In this document: piece by piece, positions 5,274-50,512 of the stretch
How the letters are laid out: each line of letters opens with the position of its first letter
Numbering within the stretch: position 1 is the first letter of the stretch
Assembly: GCA_016928155.1 (NCBI GenBank)
Contig: JAFGLG010000007.1
Span: 122,973-186,972 of the forward strand
Source of the DNA: Candidatus Woesearchaeota archaeon
GTDB taxonomy: Archaea; Nanobdellota; Nanobdellia; Woesearchaeales; JAFGLG01
Direction: 5' to 3'
Length of the DNA: 64,000 nucleotides
The notes under the pieces: generated by a model
Told to the model about the DNA's origin: nothing
What the model saw: the letters and a program-made list of their open reading frames with translations, nothing else
The model's database searches: none
Translations under genes and position numbers: made by a program

Positions 5274-7937
5274 TTATTTCGGGATGACTCCGTAGATGGG
5301 GATAAGTTCTTTTTTTCCCTTCACTTTCAGCGGAGCAAGAGGCACAATATCTGCTGGGAATGAATTCTCATCAAAACTTCCGTCGCTTCTCATAGCATCA
5401 TAAGTAAATCTGCTGATCAGTATGTCAGGCATCTTCTCACCAGTATCGGGATGGGTCTTCCCTGCAAGGTCACAGAGCCTCGCTCCAAGATTCACAGCAT
5501 CACCGATCACAGTAAAGTCCTCATAGATGCCTGTCACACCAAGAGGCCCTGCAATCATCCTTCCTGTGTTTATCCCGATGCCTATCGGCCTGTACAGAAG
5601 GCCTTTGCTTTCCCTCTCCTTCTCCAGCCCTTTCATCTCATTCTGCATCTTGACAGCAGCAAGGACCGCCCTATATGCATCGTCAGGCTTCTGTATTGGC
5701 CAGCCGAAATCTGCCATAATGGCATCTCCTATGGTCTTGTCGATGGTGCCGAGGTTTTCCTTGATTGTCGAGAAGCATCTTGACATGTATGCTGAAAGGA
5801 ATTCAGTGATGATCTCCGGCTGTGATGTATTCTCTTCAGTGGCTGTGGTGAATCCCCTGACATCAGATTCCAGGATTGTGGCAGTGATGGCTTTAGGCAT
5901 AAAAAGCTCATGGCTCCTCTCTCCCAACCTTATTATCTCTTCCATGACAGAAGGATCGACCATCCTGGCAAGCGCACTCTTTATCCTGTGGATATCTGTG
6001 GCGAGAGTGAATCCATTGGCAGCCCTGTCAGCGAAATACTTGCCTATCATGATCTCTTCAGGACCAATAAGCGGCCTGTATACCGGTGAGTCTGCAGTTA
6101 TCAGGCCATACATAATCCTGTTGCCCTCTGAGTCATTCCTGAAGATCGGTATCATGAAGCAATCATTATATGCGGCGCTGAACTTGTCATGCTCGTGGTC
6201 GCCTGCGGCTTCAAGATTCTTTTTGATGTCACCGATGATGGATCTCGGATCATATCCTGTCTTGTGGCAGACAACACCAGGTATGCCCCTTGCCAGAGAG
6301 ATGCATTCAAAAGGCCTGTCTTCGACACAGCCCTTGCCCCAGTCCTGCTCCTCAAGCGTATAGAACGCATTCGACAGCAGTCCAAGCTCAAGCCCGGCAT
6401 CGTCACTGTTCCCTGGCCTTCCCGCAAAATTCCTCGGCACGAGAATGCCGAAATCCATTGCATTCTGCACCTGCTTCGAGACCTCCCTGACCAGCAATCC
6501 GGTGATATCATTATTCCCCATATTATCTTCAGCATTCTCTCCTGCAGGTTCTTCAATCCTGCATTCGCTGTATCTGCCTAAGTCATATCTGCCGTCAATG
6601 ATGGATCTAACCTCATCAATGCCAAGAGCCTGTGTCCGCATCTTTTTCAGCTCATCCCTGACGAAGGAATCCAATGAGCCTTCATCTATACCTGCTTCAG
6701 AAGCCCTCTTGTATGCGACCAGAATCTGATAGGCTTTCTGCCTGTACGTCGGCAGGATTATGTCATCCAGGAGCCTTATCGTTTCAATCTTCTCTTCACT
6801 CTTCTGGCCCTTGATATGCTCTGCCATATAACTCCCCAACTGGCTGTTACTCACGTCACTGCTGAGCGCTGATTCAAATGCCGCAATCCTGTGCCTTGGA
6901 AGGATGATGCCCTGCAATTCTTCAGGTCCGAAATGATCCGCCAGCATCGAGAGATCGAAAGACTCATCTTTTATCTCATCCCACTTCCTGTAGGCCCAGA
7001 GCACACCCCTCTCAAAAGGAGTGCACTGGATGAACTTCTCAAGCAGGAACCCGAGATAAGAATGAAGAGCCTTCTTGGCAGCGACCTGATCTGTCTGGAG
7101 CACAGCCAGCTGCTCAGGGTCCAGGACTGCCCTGCTGGCCTTGAAATATCCTTTCTCATAATCCGCCCTGTCCCTGAAGACCTCATTGAACAGGATCGTT
7201 TCAGCAAGGTCCATCCTACGGGCGTGGTAATGCCTGGAAAATGTCTCAAATGATTCCGGGCTGTCGCTGATCTTCAGCTTCCCGCCCCTTAGCAGCCCCA
7301 CCACACTCTGGGCTATATCATGGTCTATAAGGAAACCGTCTATCTCTCTGCATAATTCCTCTACACTTTTTGAGGGTGTTGAGTATGGTGTCTCTTTCAG
7401 CGCACCTGACAATATCTCTGCAAGCGCCACTATCTGGCCTGCTCTGCCCATACCCCTGGCATCTCCAAAGTTGAGCTTATGATGATCCTGTATAGCTGAT
7501 CTCTCAACCCCGGAAAGCTCATATCTCCTGCAGATCTCAGCGCCCCTCATCGGGTGCTCAGTCATGGATCTGCCGAATTCAGCCCTGAACTGCTGCTTTA
7601 TCTCCCTCTCTTCCGGAGAGTCAGCATCGTCTGCAGCCAGGGGAGTCTGCGAGAAAACATAAGACTCCCGGACAGAGCCTATGTCGTGGAGCAGGGCTGC
7701 CCTGCTTATCTGGTCCAGGAGCCTATTCCCTCTGATCCCTGTCTCTTCTGCTATCATGTTGGCAACCATCCAGACATGATAAGCATGTCCGACACGGTAC
7801 TGCTCTTTTCCTGTGAACATCAGGCTGAATCTGTCATGCAGAGAGAGCGCATCAGGTTCAAGCACCGGTGCATCAACTAGCTCCTCTAGTGTGTTGACTA
7901 TTCCATCCTTGAATAAGGCTTTCTTTCGGTAGGTCAT
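5274..7937 (-). CDS. HD domain - GAF-like - class III nucleotidyl cyclase
   Basis: 887 aa, soluble. An N-terminal HD phosphohydrolase-type domain (about 45-215) carries HAYH (51-54), HD (84-85), EHP (127-129) and DHH (151-153). A long helical region and a GAF-like domain (about 480-650) follow. The C-terminal class III adenylate/guanylate cyclase domain (about 680-887) has metal Asp692 (SDVRGFT) and Asp738 (KTIGDAIMADFG), substrate Lys734, Thr809 in place of the second specificity residue, and transition-state Asn816 and Arg820 (GDAVNLGAR). All catalytic residues are present. Lys plus Thr is the pattern of class IIIb adenylate cyclases, so cAMP is the best guess. It may also hydrolyse a nucleotide through HD. 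No receptor protein is recognised nearby. Confidence 0.9.
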   Translation of the reverse strand: MTYRKKALFKDGIVNTLEELVDAPVLEPDALSLHDRFSLMFTGKEQYRVGHAYHVWMVANMIAEETGIRGNRLLDQISRAALLHDIGSVRESYVFSQTPLAADDADSPEEREIKQQFRAEFGRSMTEHPMRGAEICRRYELSGVERSAIQDHHKLNFGDARGMGRAGQIVALAEILSGALKETPYSTPSKSVEELCREIDGFLIDHDIAQSVVGLLRGGKLKISDSPESFETFSRHYHARRMDLAETILFNEVFRDRADYEKGYFKASRAVLDPEQLAVLQTDQVAAKKALHSYLGFLLEKFIQCTPFERGVLWAYRKWDEIKDESFDLSMLADHFGPEELQGIILPRHRIAAFESALSSDVSNSQLGSYMAEHIKGQKSEEKIETIRLLDDIILPTYRQKAYQILVAYKRASEAGIDEGSLDSFVRDELKKMRTQALGIDEVRSIIDGRYDLGRYSECRIEEPAGENAEDNMGNNDITGLLVREVSKQVQNAMDFGILVPRNFAGRPGNSDDAGLELGLLSNAFYTLEEQDWGKGCVEDRPFECISLARGIPGVVCHKTGYDPRSIIGDIKKNLEAAGDHEHDKFSAAYNDCFMIPIFRNDSEGNRIMYGLITADSPVYRPLIGPEEIMIGKYFADRAANGFTLATDIHRIKSALARMVDPSVMEEIIRLGERSHELFMPKAITATILESDVRGFTTATEENTSQPEIITEFLSAYMSRCFSTIKENLGTIDKTIGDAIMADFGWPIQKPDDAYRAVLAAVKMQNEMKGLEKERESKGLLYRPIGIGINTGRMIAGPLGVTGIYEDFTVIGDAVNLGARLCDLAGKTHPDTGEKMPDILISRFTYDAMRSDGSFDENSFPADIVPLAPLKVKGKKELIPIYGVIPK

Positions 7938-10981: not shown

Positions 10982-11704
10982 ATGGAACTGATACGTCTCA
11001 ACACTGCAGTTGTGGATGATGATTCCGCGAACAGGAACATATTCAAGTCCATCCTGGAATCAATGGGTCATGAGGTCACATTATACAGTGACGGAATCCA
11101 TGCCTATGATGCAATGAGAAACGGGGAACTCAAATATCTCGACCTGATGGTGACGGATTATAATATGCCTTCCATGAATGGAACAGAGCTGATAAAGAGA
11201 CTCAGAAGAGAAGGTTATACTTTCCCCATCATGCTGGTATCAGGGGATTATGAGTCAAGGGGCAAGGGAGAATACACATTATTCCTAAGAAAACCCATGG
11301 CGCTTGAAGATTTCTTCAGCGGGATAGGGAGATGTCTTCTCTCAAGACCGGATATACTCATCATAGGCGATCCTGATAATACTGATGATATCACAGAAGC
11401 ACTGTCAGGGGCAATATGCGGCGGAGTGCGTCACATAAGCCCTGCTGATGTGATGGCAGGAATGAACGGCAATCTCAGCGATATCGGCCTGGTGCTCTGC
11501 TGTGAAGCATCCGGCTACCAGCCAGGCCTTCTGGCAGAGAGAGCGAAGCAGCACCTGCATGCTCCAGTCGTGTACTGCACAGACAACCCGACCTGCACAG
11601 ATACCATAGATACAAAAGCAATAAACAGCACCCTGACAAAACCAGTCGACAGAGAATCCCTCAGGGTCATGCTGCATAAATTCTACAACCCTACAGATGG
11701 CTGA
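10982..11704 (+). CDS. Tandem receiver-domain protein (second receiver degenerate)
   Basis: 240 aa with no output domain. The first receiver (about 6-118) has acidic residues Asp12-14, phosphoacceptor Asp59 (VTDYNMP), Ser87 and Lys104 (RKP), so it should be phosphorylatable. The second (about 122-236) keeps an acidic GDPDN and Lys220 (TKP) but has Cys-Cys where the acceptor Asp should be, a pseudo-receiver. No histidine kinase gene lies in this window. It may act as a phosphate sink or protein-protein adaptor. Its 3' end overlaps the convergent HAD gene by 14 bp. Confidence 0.85.
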   Translation: MELIRLNTAVVDDDSANRNIFKSILESMGHEVTLYSDGIHAYDAMRNGELKYLDLMVTDYNMPSMNGTELIKRLRREGYTFPIMLVSGDYESRGKGEYTLFLRKPMALEDFFSGIGRCLLSRPDILIIGDPDNTDDITEALSGAICGGVRHISPADVMAGMNGNLSDIGLVLCCEASGYQPGLLAERAKQHLHAPVVYCTDNPTCTDTIDTKAINSTLTKPVDRESLRVMLHKFYNPTDG

Positions 11705-46413: not shown

Positions 46414-47820
46414 TTAGAAATTGACAACACGCAGCTGGGGCCTTTCTCTCTCGCTCCGGATTATCTTAGACTTCACAAGGTATTCCAGGACCTGCACAAA
46501 TCCTGGATCATACCAAGTGCCAGAATGCCTCTTGATATCATCAACAGCATCAATAGCAGAGCGGCTGTCCTTGTAGTTCCTCCCATTCACCATCACATCG
46601 AATGAATCAGCAATCCTGATGACTCTTGACTCCGGCAATATCTCCCTGCCTTCCAGACCCCTCGCGTAGCCTGTCCCATCATAGTTCTCATGATGCTGGC
46701 TGACAACGACACCCACCCTCTTGAGACCTGGGATCATGCAAAGCTTCTGAGCGCCCAATTCGGGATGGAATTCCATCATGGCCCTCTCCAAGGCCCCATA
46801 TCTCCCTTTTGTCCTGATAAGCTCAGAGGGAACAAGCATCTTGCCGATATCATGCACCATGGCAGAATTCCTGAGGCATCTCATCTGGTCATCAGAGAAC
46901 CCTATCTCTGAACCCATCCCCCCAGCAATATCACTGACTCTCCTCGGATGGCCCAGATTCATATGATTGGCTATCTCAAGCATGCCCATAAAGGAACATA
47001 TTGTTGATCCTGAGACCTCAAGCAGTTGCAGATGAGATTCCACATAATTCGCAGGAACCTTGACATGCTCGATATCTCCCTGGTCAAATCTCCTGCCTGT
47101 GCTTCCGAGCACTATCGCACCAATGACCTTGCCAAAATTGATGATAGGATAAGTCAATATGGAGCCTGACTCTGTGCCGCACACAATATTGGCATCAACA
47201 CCCGAAATATCAGGACCTGTCAAGGAAGAGTATCTTGAGCCAAGACCATTCATCAGAGATACCTTGACTCTGCTTCGCTGCTCATCGTTCAGGCCCCGGC
47301 TTGCACCAAGCTGATAGAAACTGTCATTAGGCGCCTTGAAGGCAACGAATCCGAAATCATAACCCACTGAATCCTTCAGCGCATCAAGGGATTGCTCCAT
47401 CTTGTCATTATTGTATCTTGTCTTGACACCTGTGTTCTCCCTCCTGAACCACTCAAGGTCAGTGGAATCAAGAGCAAAGACAACAGAGCGATCCTCATCA
47501 GGGATAGCCTGAAGCAATAGATAAGCATTATTCCGATCTGCGACAGGATTGGGCTTGCCTGGTATTTGCAGTCCAGCATACATCCTGGATGCCTGGCCGA
47601 TAATAGCAGTCTGGCGCATCCACTCATCATAACCTCCCTGCTCCAATGATGGTATCCCAGAAATATCTGACGGAATCTCATCAAGGCCTACCATGGACAT
47701 GAATTGCTCATTTATCCCAGAAACAGCTCCGTCACGCCGGTACTGGATGAATCCGAATGGACCAGCATTTATCAAACCGATCATTTCCTGCGCATCCAAA
47801 ACCCTCAGACAGTTCTCCAT
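46414..47820 (-). CDS. PAS - GAF - HD-GYP-like phosphohydrolase
   Basis: 468 aa, soluble. PAS-like (about 15-120), GAF (about 145-265) and HD-GYP-type domain (about 270-450). The metal ligands are all there: His in GHPRR, HD in MVHDIGKM, His in EFHPELGA, HH in SQHHENYDG, Asp in RIADSFD. The signature reads GTGYARG (GYA for GYP). Family knowledge: HD-GYP enzymes degrade cyclic dinucleotides such as c-di-GMP; the group is rare in archaea. ATG 47820 is preceded by GATGAGG. A neighbouring cyclic-dinucleotide synthase is not seen. Confidence 0.87.
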   Translation of the reverse strand: MENCLRVLDAQEMIGLINAGPFGFIQYRRDGAVSGINEQFMSMVGLDEIPSDISGIPSLEQGGYDEWMRQTAIIGQASRMYAGLQIPGKPNPVADRNNAYLLLQAIPDEDRSVVFALDSTDLEWFRRENTGVKTRYNNDKMEQSLDALKDSVGYDFGFVAFKAPNDSFYQLGASRGLNDEQRSRVKVSLMNGLGSRYSSLTGPDISGVDANIVCGTESGSILTYPIINFGKVIGAIVLGSTGRRFDQGDIEHVKVPANYVESHLQLLEVSGSTICSFMGMLEIANHMNLGHPRRVSDIAGGMGSEIGFSDDQMRCLRNSAMVHDIGKMLVPSELIRTKGRYGALERAMMEFHPELGAQKLCMIPGLKRVGVVVSQHHENYDGTGYARGLEGREILPESRVIRIADSFDVMVNGRNYKDSRSAIDAVDDIKRHSGTWYDPGFVQVLEYLVKSKIIRSERERPQLRVVNF

Positions 47821-47948
47821 CAAGCCTCATCCTGCCACCTCTCCTTTTCAATGGAAAATACCCAAATCACTGATCAATTTTATTGATTGTCAAGTAGATA
47901 TGGGATTTAATCCTCAGGCAGGAGAAATAGTGCCTATAAAAGCATTTG

Positions 47949-48043: not shown

Positions 48044-50512
48044 ATGCGATTGCAGTACATAAAACTTGAGAACATAAGGAGCTATGTCACTAACATGATA
48101 CAATTCCCTGAAGGTTCTCTGCTGCTTAGTGGAGACATCGGCAGCGGGAAATCAACTATACTCCTAGCAATAGAATTCGCCCTGTTCGGACTCAAGAGGA
48201 AGCAGCTCTCAGGGACAAGCCTCCTGCGTCATGGGAAACCAAGCGGCAGTGTTGAGCTGTGCCTCGGCCTCGACGGGAAAGAGATAATTATCAAAAGAGG
48301 GCTCAAGAGGAGCAAGACAAGCGTGACGCAAGACTCAGGATATATCATAATCAACGGCGTCAAGGAAGAGCTGACACCCATGGAGCTAAAGGCCAGGGTA
48401 TTCGAGATACTTGGATATCCAAGCGAGCTCGTAGGCAGATCCGAGGACCTGATATACAGATATACTGTCTATACACCCCAGGAAGAGATGAAGCACATCC
48501 TGTACGAGGATCCTGATGCCAGGCTTGATACTCTCAGGAAAGTCTTCGGAATAGACAAGTACAAGAGGGTCGTCGAGAACACGAATATATTCCTCAGAAA
48601 GGTCCGGGAGACCCAGAAAGAGCTTGAGGGCCAGATACAGGACCTTGAAGAGAAGGAAAAGGCATATCAGGCCCGCGAGGAAGAGATAACCTCACTTGTG
48701 CTGAAGCTGGAGACAATCAGGCCAAACCTCGAGAGGGTCCAGAGACAGATGAGAGATGCCAGGACAAGGTTCGAGGAGACAGAGAAGAAGATAAGCGAGC
48801 TCATGGAGCTCAGGAAGCTCAAAGAGCTCAACGAGCAGGCATTGAAGCACCTGAATGAAGACAAAGAGAGATGCAAGTCAGAGATAGCAGACAGCGAGCG
48901 CCAACTGGCACACCTCAGCAAGGAAGCACAGGATGTGCTGATAGAGGGGATAATCGAGGATCCCTTGAAAATCGAAGAGGACATAATCAACCTCCAGAAC
49001 AGGATATCAGAATACAACACGAACAAGATAAGAACAAAGGACAAGATCAATTTCCTGACACAGAAGATAAGCGAGCTCAAGCATGATATCAATGAGAAGA
49101 CTGCAAGGGCTGATGTGGATGTGAAGAGACTGCAGATAGAAGACATCAAGAGCAGGATATCAAGAAAAGAGGAGCTGGCCGAGTCCATCAGGCGGGCGGA
49201 ATCAAGAATCGAGACGCTCAGGGACAGCATCAGCAAACTGAGAGCCCACAAGGAGAACACTGAAGGCATTATACAGGACATATCAGGCTTAAGGGAATGC
49301 CCGACATGCTTCCAGCTTGTCACAGAAGACCATAAGCACAAGGTGGCTGTCAAGCAGAAATCAGTATTGGGAGAGTTTGAGAGAAAGCTTACAGATATCG
49401 ATGCAGAATATAGACGAATAATCGAGGACAGGGATCTTACAGTACAGAAGAAAGAGGGGATATCAAAGCTGGAAAGGGAGTATGATAGGCTGATGCTGGA
49501 GATAAAGCAGGCTGAGAGCCTCAGTGAAGAGGTAGAGAAGAAGATGAGGATCATCTCAACATATGAGGCTGAGCTGAAGAAAGCTGCCGAGGACAGCAAG
49601 GCCTTCGAGAGCTTCGACGCGACAGGTGCAGCAAAGAGCATAGAAGAGCTGAAAAGGAAGCTCAATGCAATCAACCAGATAAAAATCAAGATGGAGCGAA
49701 AGAGAAATATCGAGAACAACATGAGACAGGCAACTGCCAGGATTGAATCTCTCAGCAAATCACTCATAGAAAACCAAGATAAGCAAGACAAGCATTCCAG
49801 GAAGATAAGGGATATAGATGCGCGCAGATCACAATTGTCAGGTGTTGAGGGTATATTCGACAAGATAAAAAGAGATCTGGAAGAGATAACAGAGGCTGAA
49901 AGGAGACTGGAGCTGGATAAAATATCAGTGGAGAAAGAGAAAGAGACACTAGTGAACATAAACAAGTCATTGAGGGAAGAGATCAGGAAGAAGCAGGAGA
50001 CAAGAGCGAGGATAGAATCGCTCCTCAAGCTCAAGAACTGGTTCAGCGAGCATTTTGTGAACATGGTCAATACAATGGAGAAGCATGTCATGTACCGCGT
50101 CTATAATGAATTCAATGACACATTCAGGAAATGGTTCAATGAGCTCATTGAAGAGGAAATAATGACCACAAGGCTTGATGACTCATTCACACCGCTCATT
50201 GAGCAGAATGGATATGAAGCAGAGCTGGACGCCCTGTCAGGGGGTGAGCGGACTGCGGTGGCGCTCGCTTACAGACTTGCACTGAACAGGGTCATAAATG
50301 ACATAATCTCAGACATTAAGACAAATGACCTGATCATACTCGATGAGCCCACAGACGGGTTCTCGACAGAACAGCTCGACAAGGTGGGTGATGTGCTGCG
50401 GGAGATGGGGGTCAAGCAGACCATCATAGTATCACATGAGACAAAGATCGAAGGATTTGTAGATAATGTGCTGAGGGTCAGGAAAGAGGGGCATGTCAGC
50501 AGCGTGTCATGA
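48044..50512 (+). CDS. rad50: Rad50-like DNA double-strand break repair ATPase
   Basis: 822 aa. N-terminal Walker A GDIGSGKST, a long coiled coil broken near residue 425 by the zinc hook CPTC, then signature SGGERTAVAL and Walker B LIILDEPTDG, with SHETKIE as switch His. With Mre11 it tethers and processes DNA ends. mre11 is not adjacent, unlike in most archaea. Leaderless: TATA about 30 nt upstream. Confidence 0.93.
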   Translation: MRLQYIKLENIRSYVTNMIQFPEGSLLLSGDIGSGKSTILLAIEFALFGLKRKQLSGTSLLRHGKPSGSVELCLGLDGKEIIIKRGLKRSKTSVTQDSGYIIINGVKEELTPMELKARVFEILGYPSELVGRSEDLIYRYTVYTPQEEMKHILYEDPDARLDTLRKVFGIDKYKRVVENTNIFLRKVRETQKELEGQIQDLEEKEKAYQAREEEITSLVLKLETIRPNLERVQRQMRDARTRFEETEKKISELMELRKLKELNEQALKHLNEDKERCKSEIADSERQLAHLSKEAQDVLIEGIIEDPLKIEEDIINLQNRISEYNTNKIRTKDKINFLTQKISELKHDINEKTARADVDVKRLQIEDIKSRISRKEELAESIRRAESRIETLRDSISKLRAHKENTEGIIQDISGLRECPTCFQLVTEDHKHKVAVKQKSVLGEFERKLTDIDAEYRRIIEDRDLTVQKKEGISKLEREYDRLMLEIKQAESLSEEVEKKMRIISTYEAELKKAAEDSKAFESFDATGAAKSIEELKRKLNAINQIKIKMERKRNIENNMRQATARIESLSKSLIENQDKQDKHSRKIRDIDARRSQLSGVEGIFDKIKRDLEEITEAERRLELDKISVEKEKETLVNINKSLREEIRKKQETRARIESLLKLKNWFSEHFVNMVNTMEKHVMYRVYNEFNDTFRKWFNELIEEEIMTTRLDDSFTPLIEQNGYEAELDALSGGERTAVALAYRLALNRVINDIISDIKTNDLIILDEPTDGFSTEQLDKVGDVLREMGVKQTIIVSHETKIEGFVDNVLRVRKEGHVSSVS

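Follow-up and report, generated by a model that had tools for sequence, protein, structure and literature searches.

Can an archaeal protein both make one cyclic nucleotide and act on another? The question is raised by P0001, a fusion of an HD domain and a class III nucleotidyl cyclase encoded in a stretch of 64,000 nucleotides from a Candidatus Woesearchaeota archaeon (the window). The genome of this archaeon is 1.48 Mb in size and its phylum is one of small genomes. The features of P0001 are collected in Table 1.

Table 1. Features of P0001, with residue numbers and positions in the window.
Feature	Residues	Positions	Strand	Evidence
P0001, whole gene (HD / helical / GAF-like / class III cyclase)	887 aa	5274..7937, stop codon included	-	ORF calling, shuffles, codon usage
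HD domain	46-217	7287..7802	-	PF01966, TIGR00277, HD-GYP alignment, helical model
Orphan helical region	~227-449 (elsewhere ~227-480)	6591..7259	-	Helices predicted, no family match
Region read earlier as GAF; GAF-like by position only	~478-645	6003..6506	-	Alignment position
Connecting helix and pre-cyclase segment	626-670	5928..6062	-	Match to the F.RYVSP.V motif that related cyclases conserve in front of the domain
Class III nucleotidyl cyclase domain	682-887	5277..5894	-	Pfam, solved relatives, alignments, model
Metal ligand	Asp692	5862..5864	-	Residue check and alignment
Adenine-specifying Lys	Lys734	5736..5738	-	Residue check and alignment
Metal ligand	Asp738	5724..5726	-	Residue check and alignment
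Second base-specifying position	Thr809	5511..5513	-	Residue check and alignment
Ribose/transition-state Asn	Asn816	5490..5492	-	Residue check and alignment
Transition-state Arg	Arg820	5478..5480	-	Residue check and alignment

The gene and its cyclase domain

P0001 is encoded by a single stop-free open reading frame of 887 codons that starts with ATG. When the window was shuffled 20 times, the longest stop-free run was 259 codons, and the codon usage of P0001 agreed with that of the other window genes used for comparison (r 0.95). Therefore, we regard it as a real gene without sign of recent arrival. Recent transfer was considered and rejected; in its codon usage the gene is in line with the genome, and the tree leaves the cyclase unplaced. 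The gene stands alone. A divergent gene for a proteasome beta-subunit starts about 310 bases upstream, and downstream there is a short convergent ORF.

The Pfam model Guanylate_cyc (PF00211) matched residues 686-823 with 38.7 bits, which is above the curated cut-off of 21.9, so that the profile search confirmed the cyclase. No other gene of the genome contains PF00211. The same model gave 66-116 bits for the relatives, and the weak score of P0001 shows that its cyclase is strongly diverged. The six catalytic residues listed in the preliminary description were all present and were invariant across alignments of 12-22 cyclases. The best solved sequence relatives were Cya2, CyaB and CyaC, with E values down to 3.6e-19. 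In the guanylyl cyclase Cya2 (2w01), glutamate and glycine are aligned to Lys734 and Thr809 of P0001. Lysine and threonine at the base-specifying positions are the pattern of the ATP-using class IIIb enzymes, and their presence in P0001 suggests that ATP is the substrate.

The model of the cyclase (residues 680-887) had pLDDT values mostly between 70 and 95, with lower confidence at 731-750 and 801-810, and the cyclase part matched CyaB (3r5g) with a TM of 0.79 on the target. Structure prediction thus supported the cyclase fold and gave a mostly confident HD domain, but the full-length model was poor (mean pLDDT 52.8) and the putative GAF region was mostly below 50. The tree, which comprised 116 cyclase domains, showed P0001 as a long branch of 2.43 changes per column with no supported neighbour. 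That all catalytic residues were kept on such a long branch suggests selection for cyclase activity.

The class III adenylyl cyclases of the CyaB/CyaC/CyaB1 type (PDB 3r5g, 1wc0, 6fht) have the same catalytic fold and the same six active-site residues, and like P0001 they end in the cyclase, which follows signal modules and a linker. The inputs of the known members are GAF, PAS, REC, HAMP or CHASE domains, whereas the N-terminus of P0001 consists of an HD domain and an orphan helical region. Proteins of the GAF-GAF-cyclase and CHASE2-cyclase kinds from this phylum (L003, L014, L064 and L004) share the cyclase and the pre-cyclase motif at 33-41% identity. However, they have no HD domain, and the tree does not nest P0001 within this set. 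L064, a Woesearchaeota cyclase, is 60.5% identical along almost all of its length to proteins from genomes of the order to which the host of P0001 belongs.

The HD domain and the middle of the protein

The HD model (PF01966) matched residues 49-176 with 35.3 bits (cut-off 22), and the HDIG model TIGR00277 of NCBIfam also matched above its cut-off. With the Pfam match to the cyclase, this placed the HD domain at the N-terminus and the cyclase at the C-terminus, in the order described earlier. When P0001 was aligned with 13 HD-GYP domains from its own phylum, we found the candidate metal ligands His51, His84, Asp85, His128, His152 and His153 to be kept. These are six of the seven ligands of the H...HD...H...HH...D pattern, which is the pattern of dinuclear phosphodiesterases (PMC8177086). 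The seventh position, the last aspartate, is Glu174 in P0001. Ser88 replaces the lysine of HDxGK (P0001 reads HDIGS) and Thr183 the arginine of RPY. The GYP loop is about 11 residues shorter and the GYP motif is absent; at the place of the HHExxDGxGYP signature, two HD-GYP alignments gave HHKLNFGDARGMG. The Pfam model HD_5 (PF13487) had no match to P0001 at E<=10.

The domain had been called intact and a possible cyclic nucleotide hydrolase. It is an HD domain by its profile match and keeps most of its ligands, but intact is too strong a word and hydrolysis of c-di-GMP is doubtful, because of Glu174, Ser88 and the loss of the GYP signature. With the signature residues of the HD-GYP c-di-GMP phosphodiesterases changed or absent, the proposed hydrolysis is not supported. 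In Bd1817 the last aspartate is changed and the GYP motif degraded, and this protein is inactive on c-di-GMP (PMC8177086). Judged by the kept ligands, the altered signature and the example of Bd1817, the domain of P0001 likely binds metals and is a doubtful c-di-GMP phosphodiesterase.

The HD model was helical, and its nearest folds were PgpH, followed by HD-GYP proteins, among them the degenerate Bd1817. The match to PgpH was the best one, with an E value of 1.7e-3 for a query that included the low-confidence remainder of the model. The HD domain of PgpH, a c-di-AMP phosphodiesterase (4s1b/4s1c), has the dinuclear H...HD...H...HH...D site and is not a GYP enzyme. It is 17% identical to the domain of P0001. 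PgpH is a 7TM-HD protein that is not fused to a cyclase. We found no c-di-AMP synthase (DAC) in the genome of P0001, so that the substrate of PgpH itself is an unlikely one here. The fold and most metal ligands are also common to P0001 and the HD-GYP phosphodiesterases PmGH, PA4781 and DvhD, from which P0001 differs by the changes described above. The HD domain of P0001 has lost the GYP signature as well as two other HD-GYP positions and has glutamate for the last aspartate, so that it is more likely a sensor, or a hydrolase of low activity or altered substrate, than a canonical c-di-GMP phosphodiesterase.

Behind the HD domain, residues ~227-480 had no match to any family. Helices were predicted there with pLDDT mostly below 60, and for the middle half of P0001 there is no homologue on which a mechanism could be based. 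The GAF-like sensor of the preliminary description was not supported. Pfam gave no GAF match in P0001 even at E<=10, and hhalign of the putative region against the GAF domains of related cyclases gave a probability of 0.2%, which did not exceed the result for a control region. The shuffle z-scores resembled those of the control region as well, and the model is of low confidence. MAFFT aligned residues ~480-645 with the second GAF domain found in related proteins. BLAST gave a long collinear alignment with a Myxococcota GAF-cyclase that extended into the region and vanished when the cyclase part was left out. Between this region and the cyclase, a helix was predicted at residues 626-656 with low confidence. 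The pre-cyclase segment is conserved in the cyclase alignments, with Val660 invariant, and is likely a signal-transmitting linker.

Distribution of the fusion and signalling genes of the host

We searched for relatives of the whole protein and of its N-terminal part. No relative of residues 1-643 was detected across 371 genomes from the same phylum, and peptide patterns found no whole-protein relative in GTDB contigs or viral contigs. By tblastn, the N-terminal 648 amino acids had no match among phages and two weak matches among plasmids. About 120 cyclase relatives, taken from the phylum itself and the 80 best loci of GTDB, were screened by motif and not by profile, and none showed an HD domain at its N-terminus; the few HDxG-like words sit late in the N-terminal part, near the cyclase. 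Nine of the phylum relatives were searched with Pfam, and their inputs were GAF, CHASE2 or unknown. Against 379 genomes of another phylum (that of a Myxococcota record), the HD region gave weak matches to the HD domain only, and the class III cyclase motif was absent from the eight best of these HD loci. HD-cyclase fusions were also not found in the literature searched. An archaeal cyclase with complete catalytic residues behind an HD domain, as described earlier, is supported, and the same fusion was found in no other genome searched. By its sequence, P0001 is a new combination of known domains that was not found in those genomes.

The genome contains three GGDEF genes, one of them with EAL, two HD-GYP-type genes and a full-length RelA/SpoT-type protein with HD_4, RelA_SpoT, TGS and ACT domains (L046:1-2265:-, contig C5). 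A CRP-type cAMP receptor with the cNMP-binding domain PF00027 was not found in it. GGDEF was present in 149 of the 371 sampled genomes of the phylum (40%), and class III cyclases, often of the CHASE2-cyclase type, in 68 of them (18%). HD-GYP (HD_5) was present in 55 of 342. RelA/SpoT has been reported in 41.7% of Woesearchaeota (PMC8407392). Many GGDEF matches have been described in DPANN and Asgard archaea and very few archaeal class III cyclases (PMC8646023). The second-messenger network proposed for this archaeon thus has its genes in place, namely GGDEF, EAL, HD-GYP and RelA/SpoT, but the set is not peculiar to it, because it is widespread in the DPANN phylum and RelA/SpoT of Woesearchaeota is already published.

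Several further genes were noted. On contig C1 of the genome, a PAS-GGDEF-EAL protein (L053:622-2799:+) has GGDKF, and EVL replaces EAL. A REC-GAF-HD protein on contig C15 (L045:1237-3117:-) has a degenerate HD dyad and adjoins a second multidomain sensor-like ORF. In the window, a GAF-like/HD-GYP protein at 46414-47823 (-) has the signature GYA, not GYP. The tandem receiver protein at 10982-11704 (+) has a first receiver that looks complete and a second one that looks degenerate. An SMC/Rad50-like ATPase of 822 amino acids at 48044-50512 (+) matches LmuB, mad3 and similar PADLOC models and may act in defence or DNA repair.

Proposed mechanism and its alternatives

With a probability of about 0.6, we propose that P0001 is a cAMP-making class III adenylyl cyclase whose output is set by a degenerate N-terminal HD module. 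By analogy with the family, the C-terminal cyclase domains would dimerise and convert ATP to cAMP in shared two-metal sites. The PgpH/HD-GYP-like HD domain would bind metals and, probably, also a nucleotide. Its state would reach the cyclase through the orphan helical region, the GAF-like region and the conserved pre-cyclase segment. Points against this reading are the poor full-length model, the lack of homologues for the middle half, the strong divergence seen in the cyclase profile score and the failure to recognise a cAMP receptor in the genome. The cAMP might be read by a protein other than a CRP-type receptor, speculatively by the GAF domain of one of the c-di-GMP enzymes of the genome. 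In Leptospira Lcd1, according to its citation in PMC6416229, a cAMP-binding GAF stimulates a GGDEF enzyme.

If the HD domain were itself active, P0001 would be bifunctional: its cyclase would make cAMP, its HD domain would hydrolyse a cyclic nucleotide or dinucleotide, c-di-GMP or cGAMP for example, and cAMP synthesis would be tied to the turnover of this other messenger. This possibility is favoured by the six kept ligands of the dinuclear phosphodiesterase pattern (PMC8177086) with a conservative glutamate as the seventh, by PgpH and the HD-GYP phosphodiesterases as the nearest folds, and by the c-di-GMP synthase genes of the genome. However, the GYP motif, the HDxGK lysine and the RPY arginine are lacking, the comparable Bd1817 is inactive on c-di-GMP (PMC8177086) and the genome has no c-di-AMP synthase, so we hold it to be possible but doubtful. 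The altered HD signature, taken with the long branch and the low profile score of the cyclase, would also agree with a nucleotide-binding scaffold in which both halves are catalytically weak. Such a scaffold is improbable, as the six cyclase residues would not be expected to be all kept had catalysis been lost.

The match of PADLOC PycC models to residues 645-855 (E 7.7e-16) brings in a Pycsar-type defence cyclase with cCMP or cUMP as its product. Class III cyclases in general are expected to match these models, though, and Lys734 and Thr809 point to ATP. Moreover, the flanking ORFs, the proteasome subunit and the short convergent one, include no TIR or PycTM-like effector. We consider a defence cyclase very improbable and retain the adenylyl cyclase with a regulatory HD module as the preferred reading.

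A bolder form of the proposal is that one archaeal polypeptide makes cAMP and also, by means of a domain of HD-GYP origin whose active site has been rewired, senses or breaks down a second cyclic nucleotide, in a host without CRP. We regard this as rather unlikely; if true, a single molecule of a DPANN archaeon would connect two messenger systems. The frequencies of class III cyclases and GGDEF that we found in this DPANN phylum exceed what the literature suggests for archaea. With no recognisable cAMP receptor in its genome, P0001 offers a compact test case for cAMP signalling and its cross-talk with c-di-GMP in DPANN archaea.
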